Shown piece by piece: positions 1 to 15,021 of a DNA stretch of 15,574 nucleotides. Where the stretch lies: assembly GCA_946886065.1 (NCBI GenBank), contig CAMPHU010000104.1:1-15574 (forward strand). Direction: 5' to 3'. The notes beneath the pieces are model-generated. The model was not told the DNA's origin, searched no databases, and saw only the letters and a list, made by a program, of their open reading frames with translations. How positions within the stretch are numbered: position 1 is the first letter of the stretch; each line of letters opens with the position of its first letter. The stretch is from an uncultured Massilia sp. (GTDB lineage: Bacteria > Pseudomonadota > Gammaproteobacteria > Burkholderiales > Burkholderiaceae). A program made the translations under genes and the position numbers.

Positions 1-1967
1 TTCTGCCAGCGCAGGCGCGCTTCGTTCGGCGTTTCGGTGCGCTCGATCAGGAGCCTGGGCGGGTTGACTGGCCGCTGGAAGCCGATCTCCAGGCAGACGT
101 AGACGTTCTTGACCTCGCACCTGTCCTCGTTCTTCTTTTGGTAATTTAGCTTCTCGGTCAATACACGCCGATGCTCGCTGCATTTCGCCACTTTGCCCTT
201 GTATAAGGCCGGACGCGGACTCTGAACCGGCTGGTAGCCGCGCAAGGCCGCAGCGATGCCGGCCGGGTCATCGATGCATTCCCAGTAGCTGCCGTTGATG
301 CCGTAATCGCTCGTGACCGAGATTGCGGCATCGATCTGGTCGACGTTCTCGCTGGCGCCATAGCGATTTCGCGCGTCAGGAAAGGCCCCTTCGCCCATGC
401 TGGCGACGATCGGCTTCGGCAATGCCTCGCCGGTGATGCGGCGCAGCCCGAACCGGGCCTGCTCCTCGGGCGACGCGCCGCCAGGCGCATCGCCAGGACG
501 ATGCAGGTGCTCGCGCAGGGCATAATTGCTCGTCAACGAATCGCTCGCGGCCGTGTGGGCATGATCGTCTTCGCCCGGCACGCGTAGCGTAAAGTCGTGC
601 GGCGGCTGGCCGACCATGACGAAATGGCCACTCCGGAAATCTGGACGGCGCTTCAGGGTGAATACGCGCTGGAAGAAACCCGTACCGAGTTCGGCAAGCG
701 GTCGCCGTACCGACGAGGTAGGCACGGCGACCGTTTTGCTTTGCTGAGGCGCGGCATCCTTGAACGGCAGGCGGGCTCCGGTCTGCCGGGTCTCGAGGCG
801 GTGCCCGCGCAAGATGTCAGGCACGCCCTGCCAGCCTATCCCCTCGACGCCGGCAAATGCCACGGTCATGTCTTCCGGCGAGAAGTACAGGTAGACCTTG
901 CCGCGATTGTCACGGTCCGCTGCCGCCTTCCACTTGGGACCGACGGCGCCGACATGCTTCTTTGTATCGGACAGCTCCGCCAGCCCGGGTGCCTGGTGCT
1001 TTTTCGCCTGCACGCCCTTGATGATGTTCGCCAGGGTGCTCAAGCGGGCGTGCAAGGTCTGGCCGCCGCTGATGGCCCGGTAGCTGTCCGGGTTCTTCAT
1101 CATCAGCGCATCCGTACCGGAATAGCCATCGACAAGTGCTGCCGTTGTCGGTAGTTCATCGATGAGGCTGTATGGTGGATTGCAAAGGATCAGGGTGTCG
1201 GCCGGCCGCGCGCCGGGCTGGCATTTCTGCATGCCCGGGTCAAGCAGAAACGCCTGTGCCAGCAGGCTGACCAGGCAACCCTGGCTGTGCGCGACGATCG
1301 ACACCGTTTCGTCCTCGTCATAGTCGCGGATCATCGAGATCAGGGCGGCCAGGCGCCGCGCCGCCAGGATCATGTAGAGCCGGCCCGGGTTTTTCAAGAT
1401 AGGATGGGTCGCGTCACGTGCCGCCCAGTCCAGGCTTCCGCCCGCATCGCTTTTCCCCCGATTCCACATCTCCGGCAGCGAACTGGTGGCGTTGGCGAAC
1501 GGTCCACCGCCTTTTGAAAAATCCCTGTCCAGGCGGTTGCCATAACGGTCGGTTGCCTGACCGTGCGGCGTTTTTCTCCAGTCGCGCACGTGCTGGGCTT
1601 CCTCTCGGAATCCCCAGTAAAACGGGATAACCGGGCTGTGCGTGTCATCCGTGACCTGCCGCTTGTAGAAAACGGCGTCAGGATCCTCTTCCAGCTTGCT
1701 GCGGTCTGCTGTTTGCGGCATGCGGTAAGCAGCCGGCCTCAAGTCACCACACAGGCGTTCCGTCAGGCCTTCGCACAGCCCCGACTCGACCGCGTCGTAT
1801 GCGACACCAACGTCATTCACGCCATGCACGAGGATGATCGAGCCCGGCAGGTTGTGCCTGACCCCGACGATCCTTTTATTGGCTTGCCCCGGCAAGGTCA
1901 CTCCCTTGCCGGTGCCTCTGCTGAAAGGCAGTTTCTTGTAAAGCCCCGAGCTCTTTGCAGTGGTCAT
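1..1967 (-). CDS. Tle3-like type VI secretion lipase effector (C-terminus off the left edge)
   Basis: About 655 residues are visible and the frame is open to the left edge, so the protein is partial at its C-terminus. Seen: an alpha/beta-hydrolase core with an oxyanion-region motif VHGVND (47-52), a nucleophile elbow AHSQG (226-230, candidate nucleophile S228) and a candidate acid in SPEDMTV (D366). Beyond about residue 480 it resembles the DUF3274 region of Tle3 phospholipases (ITGEALPKPI, then a DQIDAA segment). There is no signal peptide, as expected for a T6SS cargo. Known for the family: Tle enzymes are loaded on VgrG and attack phospholipids of rival cells. The ATG overlaps the vgrG stop (ATGA), so the two are translationally coupled, which fits a cognate cargo. 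No adaptor gene lies between them; a chaperone and an immunity gene would be expected to the left, outside the window. The Tle3 assignment is by motif and context; phospholipid specificity is inferred. Confidence 0.82.
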   Translation of the reverse strand, partial: MTTAKSSGLYKKLPFSRGTGKGVTLPGQANKRIVGVRHNLPGSIILVHGVNDVGVAYDAVESGLCEGLTERLCGDLRPAAYRMPQTADRSKLEEDPDAVFYKRQVTDDTHSPVIPFYWGFREEAQHVRDWRKTPHGQATDRYGNRLDRDFSKGGGPFANATSSLPEMWNRGKSDAGGSLDWAARDATHPILKNPGRLYMILAARRLAALISMIRDYDEDETVSIVAHSQGCLVSLLAQAFLLDPGMQKCQPGARPADTLILCNPPYSLIDELPTTAALVDGYSGTDALMMKNPDSYRAISGGQTLHARLSTLANIIKGVQAKKHQAPGLAELSDTKKHVGAVGPKWKAAADRDNRGKVYLYFSPEDMTVAFAGVEGIGWQGVPDILRGHRLETRQTGARLPFKDAAPQQSKTVAVPTSSVRRPLAELGTGFFQRVFTLKRRPDFRSGHFVMVGQPPHDFTLRVPGEDDHAHTAASDSLTSNYALREHLHRPGDAPGGASPEEQARFGLRRITGEALPKPIVASMGEGAFPDARNRYGASENVDQIDAAISVTSDYGINGSYWECIDDPAGIAAALRGYQPVQSPRPALYKGKVAKCSEHRRVLTEKLNYQKKNEDRCEVKNVYVCLEIGFQRPVNPPRLLIERTETPNEARLRWQ

Positions 1968-4777
1968 GACTGCCCTTTCTCCTCGAGATAAATGCTGGCG
2001 AGGTGCATTTGTTCGTGCTTCAAGGTCGTGGTTGCGCCAGCGTCGTCCGACTCGCCTTCGCTACTGCCTGCCGGCGACTCGATCTTGTAAGCCAGGCCGG
2101 CCGCGGGCACGCCGCCGTCGAGATGGGGGTAGAGGCGGGATTCGAACGCAAGATCGGTTCCGTCCTTCTTGAATGAGGGGAGTTCGGCGCTCATTGTTTG
2201 AGGTCCCTCCCAGATGAAATCCGGAGCGTGGAACTTGAGAGCTTGCTTGCTTCCCAAGACAGGGGCGCCTTCTCCCAGCTTGAGGAAGGAACCATCTTCC
2301 GTTACAAACAGGATGCTCTTGGCCGCTACGGTGATTGCCCCCTCGTTGGCGCTCACCTGAATGTCCTTCGCCGAGTTGACGGCGATGTCGTCGTGCTGGC
2401 TCTGTAGCAGCAGCTTGCCCTTGTGTGCGATCGCATTGAACCCGCCGCTGCGGGCAAAGAGCGAGACGCCGTCACCGGCATTGACTGCGAAGCGTTGTCC
2501 CGCGGTGAGCTGCAGATGCTGTTGGGCGGTCGTGTCGATGTTGGTGCCCGAGTAGCTCACGATGGCGCTGGAACTCGCGAAACCGATCCCGGCGGGTGAG
2601 GTCATCGCGATCACCGGTTCCCTCGGCTCGGAGCTTTCCGGCTCGGTATTGCTGCCGCCCTCCCACTGCTTAAACCGTGAAAGCAGCGCTTCCTGCTCCT
2701 TCGTATCGAGGTTCAGGCCATTGTGTTCGGCCGCGTAGCTACCGAGGGAAGTGCACAGCTGGCCGCATTCGCGCAAGAGCTCGAGATATTCGCTGCGCGC
2801 CAGCTGGAGGCCTTTGGTTCCGGCGCCGCCGAGCAGCTTCCAGGCACTGATCAGGATTCCACGCGCGGCCCGCAAGGCAATGGCTTCGTCCGTACGCAAT
2901 TCCGCGCCTTCGCCACGCGGGCGGGAGCCATCCTGCCGACGCGGTTCCGTGAGGTATCCCAGGTTCAGCTCACTCGCGCCATGGTCGCTCGCCAACTGTG
3001 CGCTGATCTGGCCGGATGTGTCATCCAGCCGAAGCTGGTTGCCGCGCTGGCCGCGCACCTCGCGACTACGAATGCCCGACTGGTAACGCGTATCAGGCAA
3101 GCCGTCTTCCCGGACAAATACCGGTGGCGGCGCGTCGCCGTTGTACACCTGGCCGATAATGACCGGCTTATCGGGGTCTCCCCCGGCAAAGGCGACAAGT
3201 ACCTCCGTCCCGACGGGCGGAAGCAGGCGCGCGCCACACTGACCGCTGTTGCCCGGGCCGTCGCCAGCCCAATTGGACGATACCCGCACCCAGGCCGAGT
3301 CGCGGTCTGAATCCGAACTGCCGGCACCGGCCGCGTGTGCGTGGTCCTCCGGGCGTGTGGCGAGAAACCGGATCTTGACGCGGCCGAGATGATCGCACCA
3401 GACCACTTCGTTGTCCGGGCCGACCACGATGGCGCTCTGCAGCTGTGGCAAGAGTTGGGCTGGGCGAGGCGGGACGATGCGGATGTTGCGCCGGACGCAC
3501 TCAAAGCAGGTCTTGAAGCGTAGTGATTCATCGTCGCCGGTTGCGATGAGCATTGCTGCGTCACGAGGCCAACCACTGCGTTCGAACAGCCGCTCTACGC
3601 GGGCGCTGATCTCCACCGGAAGATTGTTCTCGGCTGCGATATGCTGCGAAGTGAGGACGAATTCGCGTTCGTTGGCGGAATGTGTATCGATCTCCGGATG
3701 CCCTTCCAGGCTGAACCACTCGCCAACGGCAAAGTCGCGCACTCCGCCTTCGCCTTTGAACCATTTGCTTGCGTATTCGTGTTGCGCCACCTGCGCATCG
3801 CTCAACTCCGCGAGATCGCGCGTGTTGTCACCGAGATGTGGGGCGCCAGTCCGATAATGTTCCAGCCCGGCGGCTAACTCGTTGCCGTGCGCTCCCTGGT
3901 TCGCTTGGGTCGCCACCCGGGTCGTCATGAACATCGTATTTCGCGGCTGTAGATAGTCCCAGCTGTGCAGCGAGCCGGCGCCCGGTTGGAGCTTGCGTAC
4001 CGCGCTCCAGCCCGTGATGGCGTCGCGCTGCTCGGTGGCGGCATCCCGATGGAAACGCACAGTGCCGGCCGAATTCGGGCCGAGCTTGCTGGAATCGTCG
4101 AACAGCACCAGTGTATGGCCACAAGGGGATCGTGGTCCGCTGCCGGAGGCGCTTCTTGCATTCGTTAATCCCGAACGAAAGAACCAGGCGATGCCACGCC
4201 GCTGCATCAGCCGCCGGACGAAGTCAGCGTCTGACTCGTTGTGCTGCATGATGAACTGGCGGCGCGGGTGTTGACGGCCGGCGAGCCTGGGATCGATCTG
4301 CAGGTCGAAGGCGCCCGCCAGGACCGGCATGCTTCTTTGCCACTCACCGACAAGTATCTCGATAATGTCCAGTTCGTTTTTGTCCCGGAACACCCGGGTG
4401 CTGGATCTGTTTTCCAGTACCGAAAGCGCGTCGCGGATGACTAGCTGGTAGCTTGCGAGACCGCCATCGCTTTGGCCCGATGCGGCTTCGGTCACGATGC
4501 CGCAAATGCGGCGCAGTTGCCCGCGGTCGGTGACGACCTGCAGCTCGCAAGCTGCGCCGATGAAGTTCTTGAGCGGCAGTGTCGCACTTGCGGCTACACA
4601 GAAAATCCGGAACTCGAAGCCGCCGCAGATCGCCTCGCTGCCAGCAACCCGTTGAGGGAGCAGTAACTCGTCTGCGGTGCCATCGGCGCCCTCCAGCACC
4701 AGGCGAAGCGGCCTGTTGCGCGTCGCGAGCCTGTACTGGGCGGGGCCGAACGCGATTGCCATGTCATTGACTGTCAT
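1964..4777 (-). CDS. vgrG: Type VI secretion spike protein VgrG
   Basis: VgrG forms the trimeric spike tip of the T6SS and carries effectors out of the cell. The 937 residues show an N-terminal Rhs/VgrG (phage gpD-like) region (about 10-400), a gp5 OB-fold (about 450-547) with DHLGRVKIRF, WVRVSSNWAG and GGDPDKPVIIGQVYN, a T6SS-Vgr segment (about 570-680), and a DUF2345 beta-helix (about 720-865). A tail of some 75 residues follows (862-937). It contains FESRLYPHLDGGVPAAGLAY, a divergent form of the 'aF-L-d-tG-p-pgl-Yri' motif common on Burkholderiales VgrGs, and may contact cargo. The ATG at 4777 is chosen because GGGAG lies 9-10 nt upstream. The stop overlaps the start of the lipase gene by 4 bp. 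The AT-richer upstream region suggests its own promoter, but no clear box was found. No baseplate or sheath genes are in the window, so this looks like an orphan vgrG-effector island. Confidence 0.95.
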   Translation of the reverse strand: MTVNDMAIAFGPAQYRLATRNRPLRLVLEGADGTADELLLPQRVAGSEAICGGFEFRIFCVAASATLPLKNFIGAACELQVVTDRGQLRRICGIVTEAASGQSDGGLASYQLVIRDALSVLENRSSTRVFRDKNELDIIEILVGEWQRSMPVLAGAFDLQIDPRLAGRQHPRRQFIMQHNESDADFVRRLMQRRGIAWFFRSGLTNARSASGSGPRSPCGHTLVLFDDSSKLGPNSAGTVRFHRDAATEQRDAITGWSAVRKLQPGAGSLHSWDYLQPRNTMFMTTRVATQANQGAHGNELAAGLEHYRTGAPHLGDNTRDLAELSDAQVAQHEYASKWFKGEGGVRDFAVGEWFSLEGHPEIDTHSANEREFVLTSQHIAAENNLPVEISARVERLFERSGWPRDAAMLIATGDDESLRFKTCFECVRRNIRIVPPRPAQLLPQLQSAIVVGPDNEVVWCDHLGRVKIRFLATRPEDHAHAAGAGSSDSDRDSAWVRVSSNWAGDGPGNSGQCGARLLPPVGTEVLVAFAGGDPDKPVIIGQVYNGDAPPPVFVREDGLPDTRYQSGIRSREVRGQRGNQLRLDDTSGQISAQLASDHGASELNLGYLTEPRRQDGSRPRGEGAELRTDEAIALRAARGILISAWKLLGGAGTKGLQLARSEYLELLRECGQLCTSLGSYAAEHNGLNLDTKEQEALLSRFKQWEGGSNTEPESSEPREPVIAMTSPAGIGFASSSAIVSYSGTNIDTTAQQHLQLTAGQRFAVNAGDGVSLFARSGGFNAIAHKGKLLLQSQHDDIAVNSAKDIQVSANEGAITVAAKSILFVTEDGSFLKLGEGAPVLGSKQALKFHAPDFIWEGPQTMSAELPSFKKDGTDLAFESRLYPHLDGGVPAAGLAYKIESPAGSSEGESDDAGATTTLKHEQMHLASIYLEEKGQS

Positions 4778-5027: not shown

Positions 5028-6530
5028 CTATTTTGGCGCTGCGCAGTAGCGTTCGACGTACTGCTGATGGGGCGGCAGCCCGCTCACCGTCTTGTCGATC
5101 GAGCTCTTGATCGCACCGAGGAAATGGGCCAGCTCCTCGTCACCCATCAGGTCGGCCGTCTGGTGGTGGCGCAGCGGCATCACGCCCTGCCCCAGCAGCA
5201 CCTGGACCCAGGAGTTCTCGGCGAACAGCTCGTTCGCGTTGCGGAACACCCGGCCCGATTCGCGGAACAAGTCGATCCGGTGGCGCAGGCCGGCCGGCAC
5301 CTCCATGTTGCGCGCATCGCGCCAGTACGGCGTGTCGACGCGGTTGCTCACGTGGTAGTGCAGGATGATGAAGTCGCGGATATGCTCGATCTCGGTCCAG
5401 GCCTGCTTGTTGTACTCGTCCACGTCGGCCTGGGCGATGCCTTCGGTCGGGAACATCTGCATCAGGCGGATGATGCTGCGCTGGATCAGGTGGATGCTGG
5501 TCGATTCGATCGGCTCCAGGAAGCCGCTCGACAGGCCGACGGCCACGCAGTTGCCCTTCCATACCTGCTTGCGCTGGCCCGGCTGGAACCTGATGACGCG
5601 CGGCTTCATCAGGGGTTCGCCCTCGATGTTGTCCATCAAGGCCTGGATCGCCTGCTCCTGCTCCACGTAGCGGCTGGAGAACACGATGCCGTTGCCGACC
5701 CGGCTCTGCAGCGGGATGCGCCATTGCCAGCCGAAGCCGTGCGCGATCGCCCGCGTGTAGGGCACGGCGTCACCCACCGACATCGTCTGCACCGCCGCGG
5801 CGCTGTCGTTGAACAGCCAATGCGACCAGTCCTCGTACCCTACCTTCATGGCCTGGCCGATCAGGAGCGCGCGGAAACCGGTGCAGTCGATGAACAGGTC
5901 GCCCTCGATGTCGGCGCCGGAATCGAGGGTGAGCGAGCGGATATGCCCCGTGAGGGCGCTGGTGGTCACGTCGACGATCTTGCCTTCGATGCGCTGCACG
6001 CCGTGGCGCTCGCTGAAGGTGCGCAGGAAGCGCGCATAGGCGCTGGCGTCCAGGTGGTAGGCGTAGTTCATGCCGTCGCGCGGCAGGTGGGCGAAGCGCT
6101 TTTCCTGGGACGCGCGCAGCTCCAGGCAGTAGTCGCCGTACTCGCCGGCCAGGCCGCGCTCGCGGCCCTTGTGCCAGAAATGCTGGAAGCCGGCGGTCCA
6201 GTGGTCGGTGCCGGTCAGGCCGAAGGAGTGGATGTAGTCTTCCCGGACGTTGCGCCAGTTCTCGAAGCTGATGCCCAGCTTGAAGGTGGCCTGCGTGGCG
6301 GCCATGAATTCCTGTTCGCTGATCTCGAGCAGCTTGTGGAAGTGGATCAGGGTCGGGATGGTCGCCTCGCCCACGCCCACCGTCCCGATCTCGTCGGATT
6401 CGATCAGCCTGATGTCGAGGCGCTTGCCCAGCACCTTGGAGATGCAGGCGGCGGCCATCCAGCCAGCGGTGCCGCCCCCGGCGATGATCACCCGGCGCAC
6501 CGGGCGGCGGGTGAGAGTGCTCTGTTCCAC
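5028..6530 (-). CDS. Flavin-dependent tryptophan halogenase family protein (halogenase A)
   Basis: The 500 residues have all hallmarks of flavin-dependent tryptophan halogenases: FAD-binding GGGTAG (18-23) near the N-terminus, GVGEATIP (52-59), a lysine in TFKLG (K84) at the place of the catalytic Lys of PrnA/RebH, the WxWxIP signature (268-273) and EPIESTS (339-345), where E342 matches the catalytic Glu. Known for the family: reduced FAD, O2 and halide form HOX, which the Lys steers to an indole or other aromatic ring. The substrate here is unknown; relatives beside TonB receptors are poorly characterised and should not be assumed to act on free tryptophan. A GTG start at 6530 is used because AGGAGA sits 6-7 nt upstream and the FAD motif follows directly. 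It is the last gene of the operon, 13 nt after the cupin gene. No flavin reductase is nearby, so FADH2 must come from elsewhere. Confidence 0.9.
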   Translation of the reverse strand: MEQSTLTRRPVRRVIIAGGGTAGWMAAACISKVLGKRLDIRLIESDEIGTVGVGEATIPTLIHFHKLLEISEQEFMAATQATFKLGISFENWRNVREDYIHSFGLTGTDHWTAGFQHFWHKGRERGLAGEYGDYCLELRASQEKRFAHLPRDGMNYAYHLDASAYARFLRTFSERHGVQRIEGKIVDVTTSALTGHIRSLTLDSGADIEGDLFIDCTGFRALLIGQAMKVGYEDWSHWLFNDSAAAVQTMSVGDAVPYTRAIAHGFGWQWRIPLQSRVGNGIVFSSRYVEQEQAIQALMDNIEGEPLMKPRVIRFQPGQRKQVWKGNCVAVGLSSGFLEPIESTSIHLIQRSIIRLMQMFPTEGIAQADVDEYNKQAWTEIEHIRDFIILHYHVSNRVDTPYWRDARNMEVPAGLRHRIDLFRESGRVFRNANELFAENSWVQVLLGQGVMPLRHHQTADLMGDEELAHFLGAIKSSIDKTVSGLPPHQQYVERYCAAPK

Positions 6531-6543
6531 GGTCGGTCTCCTG

Positions 6544-7557
6544 TCAGCGGTTCATCCGCTTTAATAATTGGGTACGGATGCCGCGCGTGGCGTCGTCGTC
6601 CAGGGGCGCCAGGATGCGGCGGGCGGCTTCCGGGATATGGGCCGCCGTGTCGTCGCCGGCCTCGAACACGTAGTGGCGGAACAGCTCCTGCCAGGCCTTG
6701 CGCTGTTCCGGCGGCAGGTCGCGCACCGTCATCAGGGCGTGCATCAGGGCGTTGGTCGGCGTGTCCATGTAGTCCGGCGACTGGCGCCACCAGTAGTTGA
6801 CCAGCACATTGAAGCGGTCCAGCGCCTCCACGTGGTGCCACCACATGCTGGGAATGAACAGGGCGTCGCCCGGCGCCATCTCGGCCACCTGGGCGTGAGC
6901 CAGCGCCTCGGCAAAGCGCGGATACTTGCCATAATCCGGCCTGGCGAAATCGACCAGGCTGATGGCCTGCCCGGCCGGCGTGAAGTCGAGCGGGCCGACG
7001 TACAGGTTTTCCAGCTGCTTGGGCGGGAACAGGGTGAAGCGGCGCTGGCCGGCGGCCACGCAGGCCAGGTTGTCCGGCAGGTCGTAGTGGGCCGCGATGC
7101 GGGTGCGGTTGCCGATCCAGATGCTGGCCAGCGCATTGCGCGCGCCCAGGTCGACGTCGTTCTCGGCGCGGAAGCCCGGCAGGCAAGTATCGATCGTGGT
7201 CGAGCCGACGTAGATCGAGGGCGGCGGCTCGGTGCCGCGGTGCTTCTCCAGTTCCGCCAGCACGGTGTCGAGGCGCACCCGCACCGGGTAGAAATTGAAG
7301 CCGCTCAGGTCCTCGTTGTAGAAGTAGCGGCCCTCGATCTCGGGCGCGCCCAGCATGGCGCCGACGGTGGCGTCGCGGTAGAAGCGCCGCAGGTAGGCGT
7401 CGGCCGCCTGCTGCGAGCTGCGCGCCGCCTGGACCATCGGCCAATCGTCCACCAGGCCGCGCAGCAGCAGCGGCTCGGTGGACGCCAGGATCTCCGGGCC
7501 CAGGTCGCTCGGACGCAGGCCGGAGAGTTCGCGTACTTGTTTAGCGACCGGCAGCAT
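6544..7557 (-). CDS. Cupin_8/JmjC-type Fe(II)/2-oxoglutarate oxygenase, FIH-like
   Basis: A 337-residue cytosolic protein without signal peptide. The double-stranded beta-helix core carries an HxD...H metal triad: H157 and D159 in AAHYD, and H242 in IPSMWWHHVEAL. The stretch RRFTLFPPKQLENLY (172-186), then VDFARPDY and PGDALFIPSMWWHHVEAL, closely follows the asparaginyl hydroxylase FIH, with an Arg (R172) near the FIH 2-oxoglutarate-binding Lys. Known for the family: 2OG- and O2-dependent hydroxylation of protein or peptide side chains or small molecules; the substrate here is unknown. Its start overlaps the end of the SapC gene by 17 bp and halogenase A begins 13 nt after its stop, so the three are likely translated from one mRNA with coupling. 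Often annotated 'cupin-like' in TonB-receptor/halogenase clusters. Family call firm, hydroxylase activity inferred. Confidence 0.88.
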   Translation of the reverse strand: MLPVAKQVRELSGLRPSDLGPEILASTEPLLLRGLVDDWPMVQAARSSQQAADAYLRRFYRDATVGAMLGAPEIEGRYFYNEDLSGFNFYPVRVRLDTVLAELEKHRGTEPPPSIYVGSTTIDTCLPGFRAENDVDLGARNALASIWIGNRTRIAAHYDLPDNLACVAAGQRRFTLFPPKQLENLYVGPLDFTPAGQAISLVDFARPDYGKYPRFAEALAHAQVAEMAPGDALFIPSMWWHHVEALDRFNVLVNYWWRQSPDYMDTPTNALMHALMTVRDLPPEQRKAWQELFRHYVFEAGDDTAAHIPEAARRILAPLDDDATRGIRTQLLKRMNR

Positions 7558-8260
7558 CGGTCTTGATTCGGCGGTTCTTGCGGTCGATCAGGGCGCGGAA
7601 GTTCGACAGCGAGGCCAACGCGTAATAGATCGGCGCCAGGTGGCCCGCCTGGTGCAGCTCGTGCACGGCGGCGGCGCTCAGGGAAGCCAGGCGTTCCTCG
7701 TGGATGGTGTAGAAGCCAGACAGGCGGCTTTGCGAACCGTCGTCGAGCGTGACGTCGAGCGCGAAGGTTTCCAGCAGCTCGTGCTTCATCAGCGCCCACA
7801 GGAAGGCCGATTCGGCCTGCATGCCCTGGTGGATGGTCGACAGCATGGCGCTGATGCGCTCCAGGTATTCGGTATTGCCGCCGTGGGGCAGGAACACCGG
7901 CTCGCCTTCGGTCTGGCTGACGCGCGGGTTGTCGAGGTCGACCTGGATCATCAGCTCGTCGCCGTTGCGGCCGATCAGGAAGGGCTGGCGGGCGACCAGC
8001 ATCGGGATCGAGGGCGCGTCCCAGCCGTCCGGGCCCAGGAACAGGTTTTCGTTCTCGGTAAAGCCCATCAGCGCGATCGACTCGAAGGGAATCTCGTCGC
8101 CGGTCTTGCGGAAGATGATCGGGTAGTCCGATTGGAGCAGGCGGAATTCCTGGGCGAAGGTCGGCACCCAGGCCACCTCGTCGCCCAGGCCGGGGCGGTT
8201 GGCGGTGATGATGCGCAGGTCCTTGTGGTCGACATTGTTCAGGAAGGCGAAGTTGGGCAT
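7541..8260 (-). CDS. SapC family protein (PF07277 type)
   Basis: A 239-residue soluble protein matching the SapC family by its opening (HKDLRIITANRPGLGDEVAWVP), an EFRLLQSDYPIIFRKTGD segment, GPDGWDAPSIPMLVARQPFLIG and a C-terminal YTIHEERLASLSAAAVHELH element. The ATG at 8260 is preferred to the upstream in-frame ATG at 8299, because that one lies inside the preceding gene and AAAGAGA lies just before 8260. The family takes its name from an S-layer locus and is not the SapC permease of peptide ABC transporters; no membrane segments are visible. Its biochemical role is unknown, but it recurs with TonB receptors, halogenases and cupin_8 genes. It starts 19 nt after halogenase B and overlaps the cupin gene by 17 bp, which implies a common function. 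Confidence 0.85.
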   Translation of the reverse strand: MPNFAFLNNVDHKDLRIITANRPGLGDEVAWVPTFAQEFRLLQSDYPIIFRKTGDEIPFESIALMGFTENENLFLGPDGWDAPSIPMLVARQPFLIGRNGDELMIQVDLDNPRVSQTEGEPVFLPHGGNTEYLERISAMLSTIHQGMQAESAFLWALMKHELLETFALDVTLDDGSQSRLSGFYTIHEERLASLSAAAVHELHQAGHLAPIYYALASLSNFRALIDRKNRRIKTDAAGR

Positions 8261-8279
8261 GTGTCTCTTTCGTTCTTGG

Positions 8280-9833
8280 TTATCGTTGTTGCAGCCCATG
8301 ACGCCGGATATGGTCGATCAGAGCGCGGTTGTCCGGCAAGGCCGGCAGCATCCGGCGGGTCAGGCTCGCCGCGTCGCGCAGGAAGCCGTCCGCCAGCTGC
8401 GCGTCGTCATGACGCGGCGCCGGTCCCGGCTCGTGGCGCAAGCCCATCCCGTACAGCACGTACTGATAGCTCGCCGCCGGGAAGACTTCCTGGATGCGGT
8501 TGATATCGTAACGCGAGGGAGGGCGGTGGCGCCAGAGCAGCAGCAGATCGGCCAGGCGCCCGGGAATGCTGTCCGCATGGCGGTTGTCGCGCCAGTAGTC
8601 GCTGTCCTCGCGCCGGCTCAGCACGTAGTGCAGCTTGAGGAAGTCGATCACCCGCTCCCAGCGGTAGGTGAAGGTCTCGTTGAAGCGGCCCGCCGCGGCG
8701 TCCACCTGGGCGCGCGTGGCCGGCATCTGGTCGGCGAGCATGGCGGCCGACAGTTCCACCAGCGCCAGCGCGGAGGCCTCCAGCGGTTCGATGAAGCCGG
8801 CCGACAGGCCGATGGCCACGCAATTGCGGTGCCAGAATTTTTCGCGGTAGCCGGGCTGGAAGCTCAGCTTGCGCGGCGCCGGGATGTCCGCGCCGGCGCC
8901 ACTGCCCCCGAGGTAGGCGCGTAGCGCGCGTTCGGCCTCGTCGTCGGTAGTGTGGGCGCTCGAGTACACATGGCCCACGCCGCGCCGGCTGGGCAGGCCG
9001 ATGTCCCAGATCCAGCCGGCGCGCTGGGCGGTGGAGGTGGTCTGCGAGGCGATCGGCTCGTCCTCGCGCGCATAGGGCACCTGGACCGCGAGCGCGCTGT
9101 CGTTGAACAGCACGTGGCGCTGCGACAGGAAGGGAATGCCGTAGTGCTTCCCGAGCAGCATGGACTGCATGCCGGTGCAGTCGACGAACAGGTCGCCCTC
9201 CAGGTCGCCGTGCGCCCTGGTATGCAGGGCGGCGATGTCGCCGTTGCCGTGCGAGCGGATGCCGGTGACGTGGTCGGGCACGTAATGCACGCCCAGCTTT
9301 TCCAGGCAGTGGGTGCGCAGGAAGACGCCGAACTTGCCGGCGTCGAGGTGGTAGCCGTAGTTGGCCACCGCCGCGAATTCGGGCGTGCTTGCCTGCTTGG
9401 GCGCGCGGCCGGCCACGCACAGGTGGGGCTGGTGGCTCACCAGGTCGGCGAAAGGCAGGTCCGCATGATGGCGCTGCCAGTGGTGGGCAAGGTCAGCCTC
9501 GCCGTAACCCTGGGGCAGCGAGAAAGGGTGGAAGTAACGGTCGCCGTCCGCGCCGGTGACCCAGCGGTCGAAGCGCGAGCCCTGCTTGAAGGCGGCGTCG
9601 CAGGAACGGAAGAAGGCGGTTTCGGAGACGCCGGCCTCGCGCAGGGTGTCGCGCATGGTGGGCCAGGTGCCCTCGCCCACGCCGATCGGCGCCACGTCCG
9701 GCGATTCGATCAGGGTGATGCGCAGGCCGCCCTGTTCCACAGGGCGGTAGCGCGCGGCCAGCACGGCGGCGGTCAGCCAGCCGGCCGAGCCGCCGCCCAC
9801 GATCACGATGTTCCTGATGGCGTTCGTCACCAT
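8280..9833 (-). CDS. Flavin-dependent halogenase-like protein (halogenase B)
   Basis: 517 residues from the ATG at 9833, chosen because AGGAAG lies 4 nt upstream and the FAD motif begins at residue 13; the longer frame to 9902 runs into the intergenic hairpin. Seen: GGGSAG (13-18), GVGEGTWPT (51-59), a lysine in AFKQGS (K83) at the catalytic Lys position, and EPLEASAL (349-356) with E352 at the catalytic Glu position. Two signatures differ from proven halogenases: WxWxIP is WIWDIG (274-279), and the Ser after the catalytic Glu is Ala (A353), next to the halide-binding backbone. It may therefore be a specialised halogenase or a flavin monooxygenase without halide chemistry. It is clearly divergent from halogenase A, so this is not a recent tandem duplication. 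It follows the receptor gene by 76 bp and precedes SapC by 19 bp. Confidence 0.87.
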   Translation of the reverse strand: MVTNAIRNIVIVGGGSAGWLTAAVLAARYRPVEQGGLRITLIESPDVAPIGVGEGTWPTMRDTLREAGVSETAFFRSCDAAFKQGSRFDRWVTGADGDRYFHPFSLPQGYGEADLAHHWQRHHADLPFADLVSHQPHLCVAGRAPKQASTPEFAAVANYGYHLDAGKFGVFLRTHCLEKLGVHYVPDHVTGIRSHGNGDIAALHTRAHGDLEGDLFVDCTGMQSMLLGKHYGIPFLSQRHVLFNDSALAVQVPYAREDEPIASQTTSTAQRAGWIWDIGLPSRRGVGHVYSSAHTTDDEAERALRAYLGGSGAGADIPAPRKLSFQPGYREKFWHRNCVAIGLSAGFIEPLEASALALVELSAAMLADQMPATRAQVDAAAGRFNETFTYRWERVIDFLKLHYVLSRREDSDYWRDNRHADSIPGRLADLLLLWRHRPPSRYDINRIQEVFPAASYQYVLYGMGLRHEPGPAPRHDDAQLADGFLRDAASLTRRMLPALPDNRALIDHIRRHGLQQR

Positions 9834-9873
9834 GCTGCTTCCTGAAAAACGGATGGGGCAGTCTACCCCGAAC

Positions 9874-9900
9874 GGGCCGCGGCGGGAATGCCCGCGGCCC
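9874..9900 (-). terminator. GC-rich hairpin between receptor and halogenase B genes
   Basis: GGGCCGCGG (9874-9882) and CCGCGGCCC (9892-9900) form a perfect 9-bp stem with a 9-nt loop, starting 9 bp after the receptor stop codon. No T-run follows on the minus strand, so it is unlikely to stop all transcription. It may act as a partial terminator or as a 3' stabiliser for the receptor message, giving more receptor than downstream enzymes. The structure is seen; the role is inferred. Confidence 0.5.
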
Positions 9901-9909
9901 ATCGGACCA

Positions 9910-12900
9910 TCAGAACTTGTAGCGTGCGGCCAGCATGTAGCGCGGCCCGGACTGTTCCACGAACAGCAAGGTCTGCTTGGTGCGGCCGTGGATGCGCTTG
10001 ATCTCGTCCGTCAGGTTGATGCCTTCGAACTGGATGCTCAGGTTCTTGCTGAGGTTGTAGCCGATGCTCAGGTCGAACTGGCCGTAGGCTTCGACATAGT
10101 TCGGGTTCGGACCGGAACCGTCGAAGGTCCCCGACAGGAACTCGTCGCGCCAGTTATAGGCCGCGCGCACGTTCCACTTGTCGTTCTCGAAGATACCGAC
10201 CAGGTTGGCCGAATCGCCCAGGCCGACCAGCGCGAACTGCTCGCCGATGCTCGCATTGTTGTACTTCAGGCCGGAATGCACGTAGGTGTAGTTGGCCTGC
10301 ACCCCGAAGCCGCTGCCGCCGAACATGTGCAGCACGTTGAATTCCAGGCCGCGCACACGGTCCTTCTTCTGGTTCGAGAACGACGTGATACGGAAATCCG
10401 CGATCGGATCGCTGCCGATGGCGGTGATCGTGCCGGTTGGCGCACCGGAGGCGTCGTCGGCTCCGCGCACCACGCCCGGCTGGCCGGCGAAGTTGCGCAG
10501 GATGTAGTTCCGGATGCAGGTGGTGTCGCCGGTGCCGCAGCCGTTCTGCAGCGCCGCGTTCCAGTAGGTGCCGCCGACCGGGGTGCGCACGCCGAAGGGC
10601 TGGGCGATCAACTGCGACTGGCCGGCGTAGTTGCTCAGGTGCTTGCGGAAGTGGTTGACCGAGAAGAAGCTCGACTTGGCGTAGTACCACTCGAAGGCAA
10701 GGTCGATGTTCTTGGCCTTGACCGGCTCGAGCGAGGGATTGCCCTGGGTGCCGGTGCCGCCTTCCACGCGTGCCAGCGTATTCAGGACCTGGCCGCCGGA
10801 GATCTGGTCGTAGCGCGGACGGCCGATGGTCTCGCCGTAGCTGAAGCGCGCCTTCATGTCCGGGCGCAGGTCGACGTCGGCGTCGAAGCTCGGCAGCAGG
10901 TGATTGTACTTGCCCTTGAGCGTGGTGAAGCCGCGCTCGCCGAAGACCACCGGGAACTCGTTCTGCGAGACCCAGCTGATCGCGGTCGGCGTCTGCACCA
11001 GCGCGCTCGAAGTGACGTCGGTCTTCTCGTAGCGCAGGCCGAACGAGGTATGGACCGGCATCGCCGTGTCCCAGTCGGTGTTGAACTGCAGGTACAGGCT
11101 CTTCGACTTTTCCTCGGTGCGCTGGTCGGTGTCGTAGGTGGTCTTCGGACGGTACAGGTCGGGCAATCCCGTGACCTGCGCCGCCAGCGCGCGCAGCTGC
11201 TCGAAGTCGAAGGTATTGAACTGGTTGAACAAGGCCGGATTGCCGCTGCCGTCGATGTTGTCGAAGTACTTGCTCAGGGTCTCGCGGTGGAACATGCTGG
11301 CCGGGTAGTCGGCGGGACTGGTGGCGCCGGTCCAGGTGTCGCGCTGCTGCACCGAGAAAGCCGAGCGGTAGTCGACCTTGGTCGCGGCCAGGCCGAACTT
11401 CAGCTCGGAGGCTTCCAGCATCTTCCAGCTGCCGTGGAGCTGGGCCTGGTCGATCTCGGTTTTCATGTAGCCGTTCTCGAACACCGAGCCGGTCACCTGC
11501 TGCGGCGCGCGCGCGAAGTCGGCGCCGGCGATGCTCAGGACCGGGAAGTCCTTGCTGAAGTCGACGGTGGTATCGCCGCGGCTCATGCTGGCGGTGCCGA
11601 TGACATTGCTCGAGCCCCAGGGGCTGTCCGGAGTCGATTCGGCGGTGGAGTGGTGGGCGTCGAATTCGAAGCGCACGTCGTTGTTGAGCTTCCAGGCCGC
11701 GTTGAAGCCGAGCGACTTGTTCTCGTTCCTGGTGGCGAAGTCGGCCCCGCCCATCGCGATGTCGCTATTCGCGTCCGGGATGTGCTCGGTGTAGATCAGC
11801 GGGCTGGCCACCGGGCCGTCGGTCCAGGTGCTCGACGAGGCGCCGAAGTTGAACCAGGCCGAGATATCCTGGCGGCGGGTCTGGACCTTGTTTTCCGAGT
11901 AGGTGTAGTCGAGGGTGGTGGTCAGCGCCTTGGTCGGGGCGAACTGGAACACCACCTGGCCGTTGGTGCGCTGGCGCTGCACGCCGTTCATGTTGTAGTT
12001 CAGGTTTTGCGGCACCTGGTACACGTCGGTCGGATCCGGACGGTTGGTGATGCGCTCGGAACCCGGCGTGCCCGGCTGCGGAATCGTGCCCCAGTTGTTC
12101 TCGTCGCCACGGAACGGACCCTTCCAGCCATTGGAGACGGCGGCCTGGTTGAAGCCCAGGTTGCGTTCCTGGTAGCTGGCGGTGAGCGCGATGCCGAAGC
12201 GGCCGTCGGCCGAGGTATTGCTGTAGATGCCGGAGATCTCCGGCGTGATCTTGTCGCCGCGCTGGACGTCGTCCGGCAGGTTCTGGGCCGACTTGTCGTA
12301 CACGCCCTTGACGCCGACGCTGGCCTGCATGCCGGGACGCGACAGCGGACGCGGTGTGAGGATGTTGATGGTCGCGCCGATGCCGCCGGTCGGGGTTTCG
12401 GCGCGCGCGGACTTGTACACCTGGATCTGGGACACCGCCTCCGAGGCCAGGTTGGCGAAGTCGAAGGCGCGGCCGTTGCGGTCGCCCAGGCCGGAAGTCG
12501 GCATCTGGCGGCCGTTCAGCAGCACCAGGTTGAAGTCGGGGCCGACGCCGCGCACGGTCACCTTCGAGCCTTCGCCGATGCTGCGGTCGATCGACACGCC
12601 GGAGATGCGCTGCAGCGACTCGGCCAGGTTGGTGTCGGGGAACTTGCCGATGTCTTCGGCCACGATGCCGTCGACGAAGCCCTGCGCGTTGCGCTTGAGG
12701 TTGAGCGAGGATTCCAGGCTGGCGCGCAGGCCGGTGACGACCACGGTCTGGGTCGTACCGTTCGGGGACAGGCCGGGCGCGCTGGCGCCCTCGCTGGCCG
12801 GGGTGGCCGGCGCTGCCGGAGCCTCGGCCGGCGGGCTTGCCTGGTCCTGGGCGTAGGCCGGTGCGAATGCCGCGCAGGCGCTCGCCACTGCCAGGCTGAT

Positions 12901-12930
12901 CAATGTCTGTTTCGCCTTGGGGTAAACCAT
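9910..12930 (-). CDS. TonB-dependent outer-membrane receptor (Xanthomonas/Caulobacter type)
   Basis: This is an outer-membrane active transporter of 1006 residues. Seen: a signal peptide with likely cleavage AYA|Q after residue 27, an Ala/Pro/Ser-rich linker (about 30-58), a TonB-box-like TVVVTG (62-67), and a plug with EDIGKFPDTNLAESLQRISG (92-111) and VTVRGVGPDFNLVLLNGRQMP. A long beta-barrel follows and ends in YKF, the terminal aromatic needed for BAM insertion. Size and plug match the TIGR01782-like class, many members of which import oligosaccharides; the ligand here is unknown. The start at 12930 has AGGAG 5 nt upstream. It is the first gene of a five-gene operon and is driven by the promoter at 13101-13129 with a LacI-type palindrome downstream. 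No FecA-like N-terminal signalling domain is present, so control by its own anti-sigma system is unlikely. Confidence 0.95.
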   Translation of the reverse strand: MVYPKAKQTLISLAVASACAAFAPAYAQDQASPPAEAPAAPATPASEGASAPGLSPNGTTQTVVVTGLRASLESSLNLKRNAQGFVDGIVAEDIGKFPDTNLAESLQRISGVSIDRSIGEGSKVTVRGVGPDFNLVLLNGRQMPTSGLGDRNGRAFDFANLASEAVSQIQVYKSARAETPTGGIGATINILTPRPLSRPGMQASVGVKGVYDKSAQNLPDDVQRGDKITPEISGIYSNTSADGRFGIALTASYQERNLGFNQAAVSNGWKGPFRGDENNWGTIPQPGTPGSERITNRPDPTDVYQVPQNLNYNMNGVQRQRTNGQVVFQFAPTKALTTTLDYTYSENKVQTRRQDISAWFNFGASSSTWTDGPVASPLIYTEHIPDANSDIAMGGADFATRNENKSLGFNAAWKLNNDVRFEFDAHHSTAESTPDSPWGSSNVIGTASMSRGDTTVDFSKDFPVLSIAGADFARAPQQVTGSVFENGYMKTEIDQAQLHGSWKMLEASELKFGLAATKVDYRSAFSVQQRDTWTGATSPADYPASMFHRETLSKYFDNIDGSGNPALFNQFNTFDFEQLRALAAQVTGLPDLYRPKTTYDTDQRTEEKSKSLYLQFNTDWDTAMPVHTSFGLRYEKTDVTSSALVQTPTAISWVSQNEFPVVFGERGFTTLKGKYNHLLPSFDADVDLRPDMKARFSYGETIGRPRYDQISGGQVLNTLARVEGGTGTQGNPSLEPVKAKNIDLAFEWYYAKSSFFSVNHFRKHLSNYAGQSQLIAQPFGVRTPVGGTYWNAALQNGCGTGDTTCIRNYILRNFAGQPGVVRGADDASGAPTGTITAIGSDPIADFRITSFSNQKKDRVRGLEFNVLHMFGGSGFGVQANYTYVHSGLKYNNASIGEQFALVGLGDSANLVGIFENDKWNVRAAYNWRDEFLSGTFDGSGPNPNYVEAYGQFDLSIGYNLSKNLSIQFEGINLTDEIKRIHGRTKQTLLFVEQSGPRYMLAARYKF

Positions 12931-13094
12931 GTGTTCTCCTGTTCTTTTTAAAATATGGCGGTCTCACCTACCCACGGTGCCTGCCGCCTTGTCTCCACAA
13001 CCCGCCGGACGCCCTCACTACCCCGGATGCTCTTGCTCCAACTCCGCGCCCTCACCGCCTGCTTGCCGCTTCATGGAAACGTTTCCATGCAGTT
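12931..13094 (-). other. Receptor operon 5' leader (about 160 nt)
   Basis: The predicted transcription start lies about 7 nt past the -10 box, near 13094, leaving a long untranslated leader before the ATG at 12930. It contains the operator, a GC-rich stretch without recognisable riboswitch motifs, and a nested stem-loop at 12957-12988 (GGCGG with CCGCC, and CACC with GGTG inside). An A/T-rich tract and AGGAG then precede the start. No protein gene is credible here. The transcription start is a prediction only. Confidence 0.4.
13072..13089. promoter_or_regulatory. LacI-type operator for the receptor operon
   Basis: CATGGAAACGTTTCCATG is a perfect 18-bp palindrome centred on CG, the typical shape of LacI/GalR-family sites. 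Its 14-bp core (13074-13087) begins 13 nt downstream of the receptor -10 box, overlapping the expected start of transcription, where a bound repressor would block initiation or escape. The regulator gene is not in the window. Confidence 0.8.
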
Positions 13095-13100
13095 GTCTGA

Positions 13101-13129
13101 ATATTAGGGTTGGAAAAAAAAATTGTCAA
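13101..13129 (-). promoter_or_regulatory. Sigma-70 promoter of the receptor-halogenase operon
   Basis: On the minus strand, -35 TTGACA (13124-13129, 6 of 6 consensus) and -10 TAATAT (13101-13106) are separated by exactly 17 bp. The spacer contains a run of nine T residues. It lies 171 bp upstream of the receptor start codon and is followed by the CG-centred palindrome. Confidence 0.8.
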
Positions 13130-13130
13130 C

Positions 13131-13146
13131 GGAATATTCCATGCAG
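13131..13146. promoter_or_regulatory. Possible auxiliary operator half-site
   Basis: Just upstream of the receptor -35 box, GGAATATTCC (13131-13140) is a 10-bp palindrome. TTCCATGCAG (13137-13146) repeats the right half of the main operator plus its flank (13083-13092) exactly, 54 bp away, close to five helical turns. A second dimer contact or looping site is possible. The centre is TA rather than CG, so the site is weaker evidence than the main operator. Confidence 0.35.
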
Positions 13147-13239
13147 ATACGGGTCAAACTGCGGCAGTTTTGCAACATTTGCGTCCATCTCAGAGGGAGC
13201 GTCCCGGCGCGATGAGGCGAGCCGTGCGGGTCTGCTCTG

Positions 13240-13282: not shown

Positions 13283-13296
13283 TGGAACCGCTTCCA
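13283..13296. promoter_or_regulatory. Second LacI-type operator, in front of the deacetylase gene
   Basis: TGGAACCGCTTCCA matches the receptor operator core TGGAAACGTTTCCA at 12 of 14 positions, is centred on the same CG, and has 6 of 7 symmetric base pairs. It begins 13 nt after the -10 box, the same spacing as at the receptor promoter. Control by the same LacI-type repressor is the simplest reading. Confidence 0.7.
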
Positions 13297-13317: not shown

Positions 13318-14142
13318 ATGCAGCGCCCGCTTGCACACTCCGCCCGCCTCCTCCTGCTGCTTGCCAGCGTCCTTGCGCCTGCGTCGGCCTGCGCGCAGGC
13401 CAGCGGATTCCGCTGGCCGAACGGCGCGCGCGCCGCGGTCAGCCTGGCCTACGACGACGCCCTCGACTCCCAGCTCGACCACGCCCTGCCTGCGCTCGAC
13501 CGCCATGGCCTCAAGGGCAGCTTCTACCTGCAGCTGTCGAATCCCGCCGTGGCCAGGCGCATGGGCGAGTGGCGGGCGGCTGCCCGGCGCGGCCATGAAC
13601 TGGGCAACCACAGCCTGTTCCACCAGTGTTCGGGTTCGGGCGCGGACCGCGCCTGGGTGGAGCCGCACCGCAATCTCGACACCACCACGCCGGAGCAGAT
13701 GCGCGACCAGGTCCTGCTCGGCAATACGATGCTGGAGGCGATCGACGGCCGCCGCGAGCGCACCTATACCGCGCCTTGCGGCGACCTGCTGGCCTCGGGC
13801 CGTCCTTACCTGCCGGCGCTGCGCACGGCCTTCGTGGCGGTCAAGGCGGGCGGCGGCGAAGGCGTGGCTGCCTCCATGGCCACGGTCGATCCCTATGCGG
13901 TGGCGGTGGCGGGGCCGGTGAATGCCAGCGGCAAGGAGATGATCGCGCTGGTCCGGCAGGCCGGCGCGCGCGGCACCATGGTCGCCTTCACCTTCCACGG
14001 CATCGGCGGCGACTACCTGAGCGTGTCGGCGCAGGCGCACGAGGAGCTGCTGCGCTTCCTGGCGCAGCACCGCGGCGCGTATTGGACCGACACCTTCCTC
14101 AACATCATGCAGCACGTGAAGAAGGAGCAGGCGCGGCGGTAG
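13318..14142 (+). CDS. Exported polysaccharide deacetylase (NodB/CE4-like)
   Basis: 274 residues with a signal peptide (cleavage near ACA|QA or AQA|SG, residues 26-28), so periplasmic or secreted. The NodB fold is indicated by motif 1 AYDDA (44-48; D46 as candidate base, D47 as metal ligand) in place of the usual TFDDG, by motif 2 NHSLFH (97-102; H98 and H102 as metal ligands), by YTAPCGD (150-156) at the motif 3 position, and by a late TFHGIG (225-230) with H227. Known for the family: metal-dependent removal of N- or O-acetyl groups from chitin-like polymers, peptidoglycan or other polysaccharides; the substrate here is unknown. The ATG has AGGGAGA about 9 nt upstream. The gene diverges from the receptor operon and carries a copy of its operator, suggesting that it prepares a carbohydrate for uptake. 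The cysteine near the signal end lacks a good lipobox. Confidence 0.82.
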   Translation: MQRPLAHSARLLLLLASVLAPASACAQASGFRWPNGARAAVSLAYDDALDSQLDHALPALDRHGLKGSFYLQLSNPAVARRMGEWRAAARRGHELGNHSLFHQCSGSGADRAWVEPHRNLDTTTPEQMRDQVLLGNTMLEAIDGRRERTYTAPCGDLLASGRPYLPALRTAFVAVKAGGGEGVAASMATVDPYAVAVAGPVNASGKEMIALVRQAGARGTMVAFTFHGIGGDYLSVSAQAHEELLRFLAQHRGAYWTDTFLNIMQHVKKEQARR

Positions 14143-14253
14143 TGTTTTTCAGCGGTCCATCCCGCCGAATGCGCAGTCCGTCGCAATCCGGAAGGCAAAT
14201 TCCGTGTGTTCGCCTATTCTGCCGCCATCGACAATCATTTTCGGAGATCCACC

Positions 14254-15021
14254 ATGAATAAACTGCTGACCGCCGCCTTCGTCGCCGGCTCGCTCACCCT
14301 GGCCGCCGGCCCCGTCCTCGCCGGCGACGCCGCGCGCGAGACCCGCGCCGTGGACGCCAAGGTCACCAAGGTCAAGCTGGGCGGCGTGGTCGATCTGGTC
14401 CTGGTCCAGGGTCCCACGGCCTCGCTGGTGGTCTCGGGAGATCCCCGCTACATCAAGCGCATCACCACCGCGCAGCGCGGCGACACCCTCGAAATCGGCA
14501 CCGAATCCTTCACCAACCGCAACGAGCGCATGGAACACCGGCTGCGCGCCGAGCTCACCATGCCGAACCTGGCCGAGTTCACGTCGAACGGCGTCGGCAG
14601 CTCGACCGTCAGCGGCTTTTCCGGCGACAGCGTGAAGCTGGCCCTGGACGGCGCCGGCGCGATCGCCGTCGACGGCGGCTTCCGCCAGATCGATGCCCGC
14701 CTGGGCGGCGTGGGCGCGATGAGCCTCAAGGGTGTGCGCGCCGAGCGCGTCGACCTGAGCCTGCGCGGCGCCGGCCGCATGACGGTCCAGGGCCAGACCC
14801 GGATGCTGCAGGCCAAGCTGAGCGGCGTCGGCAGCCTGGAAGCGCAGGGGCTGCAGGCCGATACCGTCGACCTGGCCCTGTCCGGCCTGGGCGGCGCCTC
14901 GGTGCACGCGAAGCAGGCCGCCGACGTGAGCCTGAGCGGCCTGGGGTCGGCCACGGTGTACGGCAATCCGGCCAAGCGCAACGCCAGCGACAACGGTCTC
15001 GGCAGCATCAGCTGGAAATAA
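14254..15021 (+). CDS. Exported DUF2807 / head GIN domain protein
   Basis: 255 residues from the ATG at 14254, preferred to an upstream in-frame ATG because GGAG lies 7 nt before it and the signal peptide starts there (cleavage VLA|GD after residue 23). After an N-terminal beta-rich region (VVDLVLVQGPTASLVVSGDP, 45-64), residues 112-253 are tandem units of about 20 residues opening with L-x-G-x-G (for example LDGAGAIAV, LGGVGAMSL, LRGAGRMTV, LSGVGSLEA, LSGLGGASV, LSGLGSATV), consistent with a right-handed beta-helix. Members of this family are periplasmic or cell-surface proteins of unclear function, abundant in Bacteroidetes and also found in proteobacteria. It is separated by 111 bp from the deacetylase gene and may have its own promoter; a functional link to its neighbours is not established. 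It ends 16 bp from the convergent gene. Confidence 0.82.
   Translation: MNKLLTAAFVAGSLTLAAGPVLAGDAARETRAVDAKVTKVKLGGVVDLVLVQGPTASLVVSGDPRYIKRITTAQRGDTLEIGTESFTNRNERMEHRLRAELTMPNLAEFTSNGVGSSTVSGFSGDSVKLALDGAGAIAVDGGFRQIDARLGGVGAMSLKGVRAERVDLSLRGAGRMTVQGQTRMLQAKLSGVGSLEAQGLQADTVDLALSGLGGASVHAKQAADVSLSGLGSATVYGNPAKRNASDNGLGSISWK

Follow-up and report, generated by a model that had tools for sequence, protein, structure and literature searches.

Carbohydrate utilisation loci built around TonB-dependent receptors commonly carry a regulator, glycoside hydrolases, a symporter and a kinase nearby. Loci of this kind, which tie a TonB receptor to sugar scavenging, have been described in Xanthomonas and aquatic bacteria (PMC1790865). 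We analysed a 15,574-nucleotide (nt) stretch of DNA from an uncultured Massilia sp. (contig CAMPHU010000104.1; "the window" below means this whole stretch), in which a five-gene operon likewise joins a TonB receptor to sugar use. Most likely it is a beta-glucan uptake operon, with an extra tailoring cassette whose occurrence is not limited to a single sugar. Besides the receptor (T), the operon encodes two flavin-dependent halogenase-like proteins (A and B), a SapC family protein (S) and a cupin_8 oxygenase (C), whereas the words "halogenase", "SapC" and "tryptophan" are absent from the main text of PMC1790865. C shares the Cupin_8 domain and the His-x-Asp...His triad with protein hydroxylases of the FIH, JMJD5 and YcfD type, and in sequence it is similar to FIH and JMJD5. 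A and B belong to the same flavoprotein superfamily as QhpG, LodB and MibH, which offer a precedent for oxidation of tryptophan inside a peptide or protein; in the case of the flavoprotein QhpG, the Trp that is oxidised is part of a protein. The profiles of QhpG and LodB match A and B only far below cut-off (for QhpG, 40.6 bits for A and 19.1 bits for B against a cut-off of 240), and PDB 5uao, which we take to be MibH, is a distant match of both. Halogenase genes near TonB receptors have reportedly been noticed before in work on Xanthomonas and Caulobacter. B lies close to BrvH (PDB 6frl) and to 6y1w-type flavin halogenases. According to PMC5945002, BrvH likewise has a second halogenase gene just upstream, and interest in BrvH-type enzymes has been as biocatalysts, with no natural substrate known; the main text of that paper mentions neither "TonB" nor "SapC".

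All five genes lie on the minus strand in the order T, A, S, C, B. T (positions 9910..12930) is a TonB-dependent receptor of the TonB-Xanth-Caul subfamily and the proposed beta-glucan importer. As a whole protein it scores 630 bits against TIGR01782 (cut-off 310), and matches to both PF07715 and PF00593 account for a plug and a beta-barrel. Its AlphaFold model (predicted local distance difference test, pLDDT, 84.4) matches TonB-dependent transporters in PDB (best expectation value, E, 4.8e-29). A (8280..9833) and B (5028..6530, with a GTG start) both match PF04820 and are 33% identical to each other; their nearest PDB entries are 2pyx, 9ltb and 9lu2 for A, and 6y1w, 9luq and 6frl for B. Between them lie S (7541..8260), a SapC family protein and proposed escort or adaptor, which matches PF07277 over its full length (positions 1-220 of 220, 225.6 bits) and whose nearest relative among named ones is a Massilia protein with 84% identity, and C (6544..7557, PF13621), an FIH-like 2-oxoglutarate (2OG) oxygenase whose gene overlaps that of S by 17 nt. 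No signal peptide was seen by eye in A, S, C or B; these four proteins should thus act in the cytoplasm.

The gene set recurs well beyond the window. We compared 80 named loci fetched with SapC (the best 80 of 400 relatives) together with the window, S being present in all 81 by construction since SapC was the search bait. The exact order T-A-S-C-B is found in 63 of the 81, each time with all five genes on one strand; median gaps in these full loci are 104 (range 67 to 381), 23, -17 and 17 nt, with no more than 150 nt between T and A in 54 of 63. Shorter variants account for 14 loci (8 T-S-C, 4 T-S-C-B and 2 T-A-S-B), and 4 of 81 end at a contig edge before T. Two of the T-S-C loci, L063 and L068, are second copies in genomes that carry T-A-S-C-B at L013 and L035. 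The loci come from Massilia, Duganella, Pseudoduganella, Rugamonas, Telluria, Pseudoxanthomonas, Luteimonas, Lysobacter, Paucibacter, Rubrivivax and unnamed bins. The operon is thus real and recurrent, and the gene set itself is confirmed.

The association also holds genome-wide. In nine genomes chosen for carrying the cassette, with 106 TIGR01782 receptors between them, we counted cassette genes within 5 kb of such a receptor. Halogenases, counted only at 150 bits or more (6 of 64 rows dropped), lie within this distance in 52 of 58 cases against about 2.5 expected at random. The same holds for 17 of 23 cupin_8 genes (about 0.9 expected), 13 of 19 SapC genes (about 0.8) and 4 of 8 DUF6445 genes (about 0.4; two weaker rows dropped). 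Fourteen of the 106 receptors have SapC nearby, with or without other cassette genes, and halogenases pair with this receptor type both with and without SapC. In other taxa the cassette repeatedly has DUF6445 (PF20043) as a neighbour, at L173, L176, L191 and L200 by scan and at L170 by eye and position; this protein may be a further tailoring enzyme.

To see how SapC is distributed more widely, we surveyed 249 Pseudomonadota genomes, drawn evenly, of which 84 carry it. Long stretches were taken at 119 of the places listed and short ones at 30 more, with further matches beyond those listed, and all were scanned with profiles derived from the window together with the 80 fetched loci. Among the 119 long loci, T is present in 20, other cassette genes without T in 2 and no hit at all in 4; one of the two T-less loci, L126, has only a remote halogenase-like match. 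One of the 30 short loci carries cassette genes. SapC proteins of the window's type, defined by a score of at least 170 bits (a threshold chosen after the scores were seen), stand beside cassette genes in 17 of 17 cases, compared with 6 of 128 for other SapC. One SapC subfamily is thus part of this system, and the bulk of PF07277 lies outside it. Chance co-occurrence can be rejected on three counts: the 63 ordered loci among 81, halogenase-receptor proximity far over expectation, and the 17 of 17 window-type SapC proteins beside cassette genes. The initial annotation had proposed a non-random association of five genes, namely a receptor, two divergent halogenase-like enzymes, a SapC protein and an FIH-like oxygenase, spaced by 76, 19, -17 and 13 nt. 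Each gene was found in its place, the T-A, A-S, S-C and C-B gaps computed from the coordinates are the same, and the gene-neighbourhood comparison bears out that the genes belong together.

The neighbours of the operon in relatives indicate what the receptor serves. They include GH16, GH3 and GH1 enzymes, a glucokinase, the symporter GluP and a LacI regulator. The window itself holds only the receptor, the deacetylase and the operator among the parts of such a beta-glucan locus, the set of glucanase, glucosidase, transporter and regulator being that of relatives. Its divergent polysaccharide deacetylase (13318..14142, plus strand, PF01522) is fused to or near a GH16 glucanase in relatives; at L003 (4741-6324) a protein uniting PF01522 and PF00722 takes the place of the stand-alone deacetylase. 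In the close relative L002, with 91% DNA identity over window positions 5029-13178, genes for GluP, glucokinase, GH3 and LacI follow directly after B (GH3 and LacI assigned by clustering with scanned L003 proteins). The window has a VgrG-Tle3 pair at that place, so this flank differs between close relatives.

A LacI-type palindrome, TGGAAACGTTTCCA (13074..13087, exact match), is the proposed operator for both the operon and the divergent deacetylase gene. It lies 13 nt downstream of a sigma-70-like promoter upstream of T (TTGACA-17-TAATAT, 10/12, minus strand, 13101..13129), which it adjoins, and a site just downstream of a promoter is a usual place for a repressor. The promoter is a candidate by consensus match only, 7 such pairs being found in the window against 1.5 expected. 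A possible second operator near the deacetylase start, TGGAACCGCTTCCA (13283..13296, 2 mismatches), is not significant alone: 34 of 200 shuffles give at least two matches at up to 3 mismatches. Across loci, the 12-base palindrome core with at most one mismatch occurs upstream of T in 66 of 77, compared with 55 of 1540 random 600-base stretches of the same loci, some of which may hold a true site. With up to 2 mismatches, the palindrome is found near the deacetylase/GH16 cluster in 51 of 53 loci, near GH1 in 18 of 25, LacI in 8 of 45, GH3 in 3 of 30, GluP in 0 of 28 and glucokinase in 0 of 15. Each of four Massilia genomes has one or two exact copies of the palindrome, one of them always at this operon. 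Two of the four have a single further exact copy, which falls at the 5' end of a GH16 gene, a good distance ahead of the catalytic domain, where the start codon is unsettled. The GH16 protein with this site in Massilia sp. ST3, a close relative, matches laminarinases in PDB (8xph, E 2.5e-34). Because of these neighbours and the LacI-type operator shared with GH16, we regard T as most likely a receptor for beta-1,3-glucan oligosaccharides, which, judging from this genomic context, it would import. The initial annotation had set sugar uptake in opposition to the enzymes. That opposition is not supported in the form given, as the neighbours and the shared operator tie the locus to beta-glucan use; sugar uptake leaves room for the enzymes provided that their target is the receptor rather than what it carries.

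Related cassettes stand beside genes for other sugars (GH1, LacI, galE and galT in the survey cassette loci were recognised by eye). Two N-acetylglucosamine (GlcNAc) loci carry T-S-A beside GH20, a BadF/BadG-type kinase and NagB-II (L175) and T-A-S beside NagK (L181). Galactokinase (galK) and GH43 adjoin T with S and A at L174, and T-A-S is found beside GH36 (L222) and GH42 (L224). T-S-C-B occurs beside an MFS_2 symporter at L171, a T-S-B-type locus beside GH5 at L209, and beta-glucoside genes were recognised by eye beside both T-S-C-B and T-A-S-C-B. Among loci found by SapC the presence of A, B and C varies, and the receptor type is the common element. In a FastTree phylogeny of 115 receptors (row L079 was mislabelled as lacking SapC though SapC is present), 34 of 36 SapC-linked rows fall in one clade that spans galactoside and beta-glucoside loci. 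The other two form part of a separate clade and are the GlcNAc loci L175 and L181 (row L244). The SapC label changes 7 times on this tree against a shuffled mean of 30.6; this SapC type is linked to one main receptor clade plus a second. A sugar-specific role of the enzymes was set aside, related cassettes being present at GlcNAc, galactose and beta-glucoside loci alike. A sugar-acting enzyme is not expected across such different sugars, and cassettes at several of them suggest a target in common, for which the simplest candidate is the not yet exported receptor, with SapC as a possible escort.

The same loci bear on the idea that the enzymes detoxify or use a small aromatic compound taken in along with the glycan, for example a plant phenolic or phenolic aglycone. 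In its favour, aromatic aglycones are common on beta-glucosides. BrvH is reported to brominate indole slowly and to have an active site that could admit larger substrates (PMC5945002). Related cassettes, however, also occur at loci for GlcNAc, galactose and galactosides, sugars for which one would not expect an aglycone. By eye, we recognised no gene for aromatic degradation next to the loci inspected, and a small phenol would be a poor fit for an FIH-like protein hydroxylase; we consider this explanation unlikely. Still less probable is that the enzymes act on a different exported product of this regulon, for instance the GH16 glucanase or the deacetylase, rather than on the receptor. The deacetylase gene does diverge from the same operator region, with the site preceding the deacetylase/GH16 cluster in 51 of 53 loci, and SapC outside TonB loci sometimes adjoins very large open reading frames (ORFs), some with an LEPR-XLL domain. 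Yet by eye we recognised neither GH16 nor the deacetylase at the cassette loci for GlcNAc, galactose and beta-glucosides, whose common neighbour is the receptor.

Turning to the enzymes, we found the Lys and Glu at the catalytic positions, whose roles we take from RebH, to be invariant both in A (79 of 79 rows) and in B (86 of 86 rows), in alignments filtered by length and profile score. Both proteins also contain the GxGxxG motif, which binds flavin adenine dinucleotide (FAD), and the WxWxI motif of flavin-dependent halogenases. A and B thus have the sequence features of PF04820 flavin-dependent halogenases, and halogenation is their predicted activity. These features would also suit halogenases of the ordinary kind, with free tryptophan or a secondary metabolite as substrate and a place in the operon through co-regulation alone. 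But B aligns with RebH only up to residue 426 and A with RebH chains only to about residue 428, and the regions of A and B beyond these points are unmatched by RebH in the sequence alignment; in RebH/PrnA-type enzymes this C-terminal region presumably anchors the tryptophan backbone. Inspection of loci by eye showed no recognisable biosynthetic cluster, and 52 of 58 halogenases in the nine genomes lie beside a TIGR01782 receptor, all of which makes the free-substrate explanation very improbable.

In C, the His-Asp-His triad (H157, D159, H241) is present in 93 of 93 rows, and the sequence resembles FIH and JMJD5. At the position of FIH Lys214, which we take to bind the 2OG carboxylate, all 93 rows have Arg instead of Lys. 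YcfD presumably uses Arg at that place, and by analogy Arg may serve in place of Lys in C as well; because of this replacement we call C FIH-like and not an FIH. The conservation of all three enzymes also bears on whether they are still catalytic, or have turned into sensors of flavin, oxygen or iron, or into partners that adjust receptor assembly by binding. A, B or C is missing in 14 of 77 uncut loci while T stays, and a profile scan of the window proteins found no flavin reductase within the operon, as such a role would allow. Invariant catalytic-position residues (79/79 in A, 86/86 in B, 93/93 in C) are nevertheless not predicted by drift or by a binding-only role, and we regard non-catalytic proteins as quite improbable.

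The SapC model is confident (pLDDT 94.8), and its fold has no match among PDB or viral structures. SapC of the Campylobacter fetus S-layer locus, which we take to be the namesake of PF07277, belongs to the same family and shares a link to a surface protein, with different neighbours; we know of no established role for it. In the survey, SapC also forms the N-terminus of larger proteins of 546, 625 and 653 residues (L111:1031-2908, L113:8054-9694 and L119:7943-9904), and the C-terminal part of the three fusions scanned has no Pfam match. Outside TonB loci, an ORF of at least 1000 residues lies within 3 genes of SapC in 25 of 95 loci, a raw count without a control rate, and 2 of the three giant neighbours scanned carry an LEPR-XLL domain (L126:1-7784, L158:1-4733).

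Considering these observations together, we favour maturation of the receptor, ahead of small aromatic substrates and then of other exported proteins. LacI would control the beta-glucan uptake operon; the GH16 glucanase with the same operator would release beta-1,3-glucan oligosaccharides, which the receptor would take up, and in relatives the GH3/GH1 enzymes, GluP and glucokinase would complete glucan use. A, S, C and B would form a cytoplasmic maturation cassette for the receptor: SapC may bind the receptor chain before export and present it to the halogenase-like and FIH-like enzymes, which would oxidise (brominate, chlorinate or hydroxylate) selected side chains, and the modified receptor would then be exported and inserted. 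The receptor as substrate, SapC as escort and the kind of chemistry are what we infer here, and we put this LacI-controlled operon with its cytoplasmic, SapC-escorted cassette forward tentatively, as an explanation that is possible rather than probable. The broader proposal is more doubtful: a dedicated system for modifying outer-membrane receptors, in which a new-fold SapC would escort the unexported receptor to halogenases and an FIH-like oxygenase for bromination or hydroxylation, at several sugars and with a simpler SapC-less form.

Features of the receptors themselves were compared with these proposals. SapC-linked receptors have an extra loop, at T residues 788-839 in the window, and Trp at position 653 (W653) in 0.81 of rows, compared with 0.02 of unlinked receptor rows. 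Both the loop and W653 appear extracellular, judging from strand order in the model. Median Trp and Tyr contents are nearly equal in SapC-linked, halogenase-only and unlinked receptors, and linked receptors are somewhat higher in Phe and in length (934 and 925 residues from the plug, against 871 in unlinked ones), all compared without a significance test. The non-aromatic receptor positions 666, 838 and 967 differ in groups that have lost A or B, and 666 and 838 differ in the window too.

Several results weigh against a modified receptor. Three Massilia-group genomes (G001, G002 and G004) keep T-S-C without any PF04820 match, which means that halogenation is not essential to the receptor; three further T-S-C genomes have 2, 1 and 2 PF04820 matches elsewhere, one of them weak. 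Massilia aurea is a named species with T-S-C and no PF04820 match. No conserved aromatic receptor residue was lost with A or B among 77 receptors at the thresholds used, a comparison of low power. Similarly, 2745 residue-trait tests over a wider tree gave a best halogenase-label result of about 3.8 same-way pairs of 12 (a net count), with 0.05 unreachable; fewer than 6 discordant pairs cannot reach that level, so the power of these tests is low. The loop at 788-839 and W653 may serve ligand binding, which fits them as well as modification does. In the nine genomes most receptors (66 of 106) stand more than 5 kb from any cassette gene; of the other 40, 26 have a halogenase, cupin_8 or DUF6445 gene nearby but lack SapC (22 of these 26 have a halogenase), so SapC is no general need of receptor-linked halogenases. 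Lastly, 93 of the 119 long survey loci have SapC and no cassette gene, most SapC proteins being unrelated to TonB receptors. The initial annotation had suggested modification of a peptide or protein, perhaps imported by or located on the receptor. A modified protein on or near the receptor is still the best reading, given related cassettes at receptors for different sugars; it is weakened by the lack of a halogenase-tracking residue in these low-power tests and by the three genomes without PF04820.

Full-text literature searches, with subscription papers mostly outside their coverage, found no paper on this gene set among those listed, as judged mainly by titles and the openings of abstracts. 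The words "halogenase", "SapC", "cupin" and "JmjC" do not appear in the main text of a paper on Shewanella sugar use (PMC2996990), and the accessible part of PMC11337851 holds nothing on this gene set. With 52 of 58 halogenases in the nine cassette-bearing genomes near one receptor subfamily, the question of what they halogenate can be put directly to a single protein. Should the receptor prove to be modified, this would add a layer of outer-membrane protein maturation that we did not find described in the literature searched; if it is not, the shared presence of the cassette across sugars still narrows the search for a substrate. A cassette of this kind, if the proposal is true, would serve receptors for several sugars, and its simpler halogenase-only form would serve further ones, which would explain many halogenases of unknown substrate. 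SapC, with a confident model and no solved relative, would then gain a first function.

An anti-phage defence role was rejected, S, C, A and B having no PADLOC match at E 0.001. No RNA element was detected in the window at Rfam gathering scores. Directly downstream of B, the window (3-4777) encodes a Tle3-type phospholipase effector of the type VI secretion system together with VgrG. On the other side, the deacetylase gene is followed by one for a DUF2807 protein (14206-15021), whose cluster, c6, is found in 18 of 81 loci.

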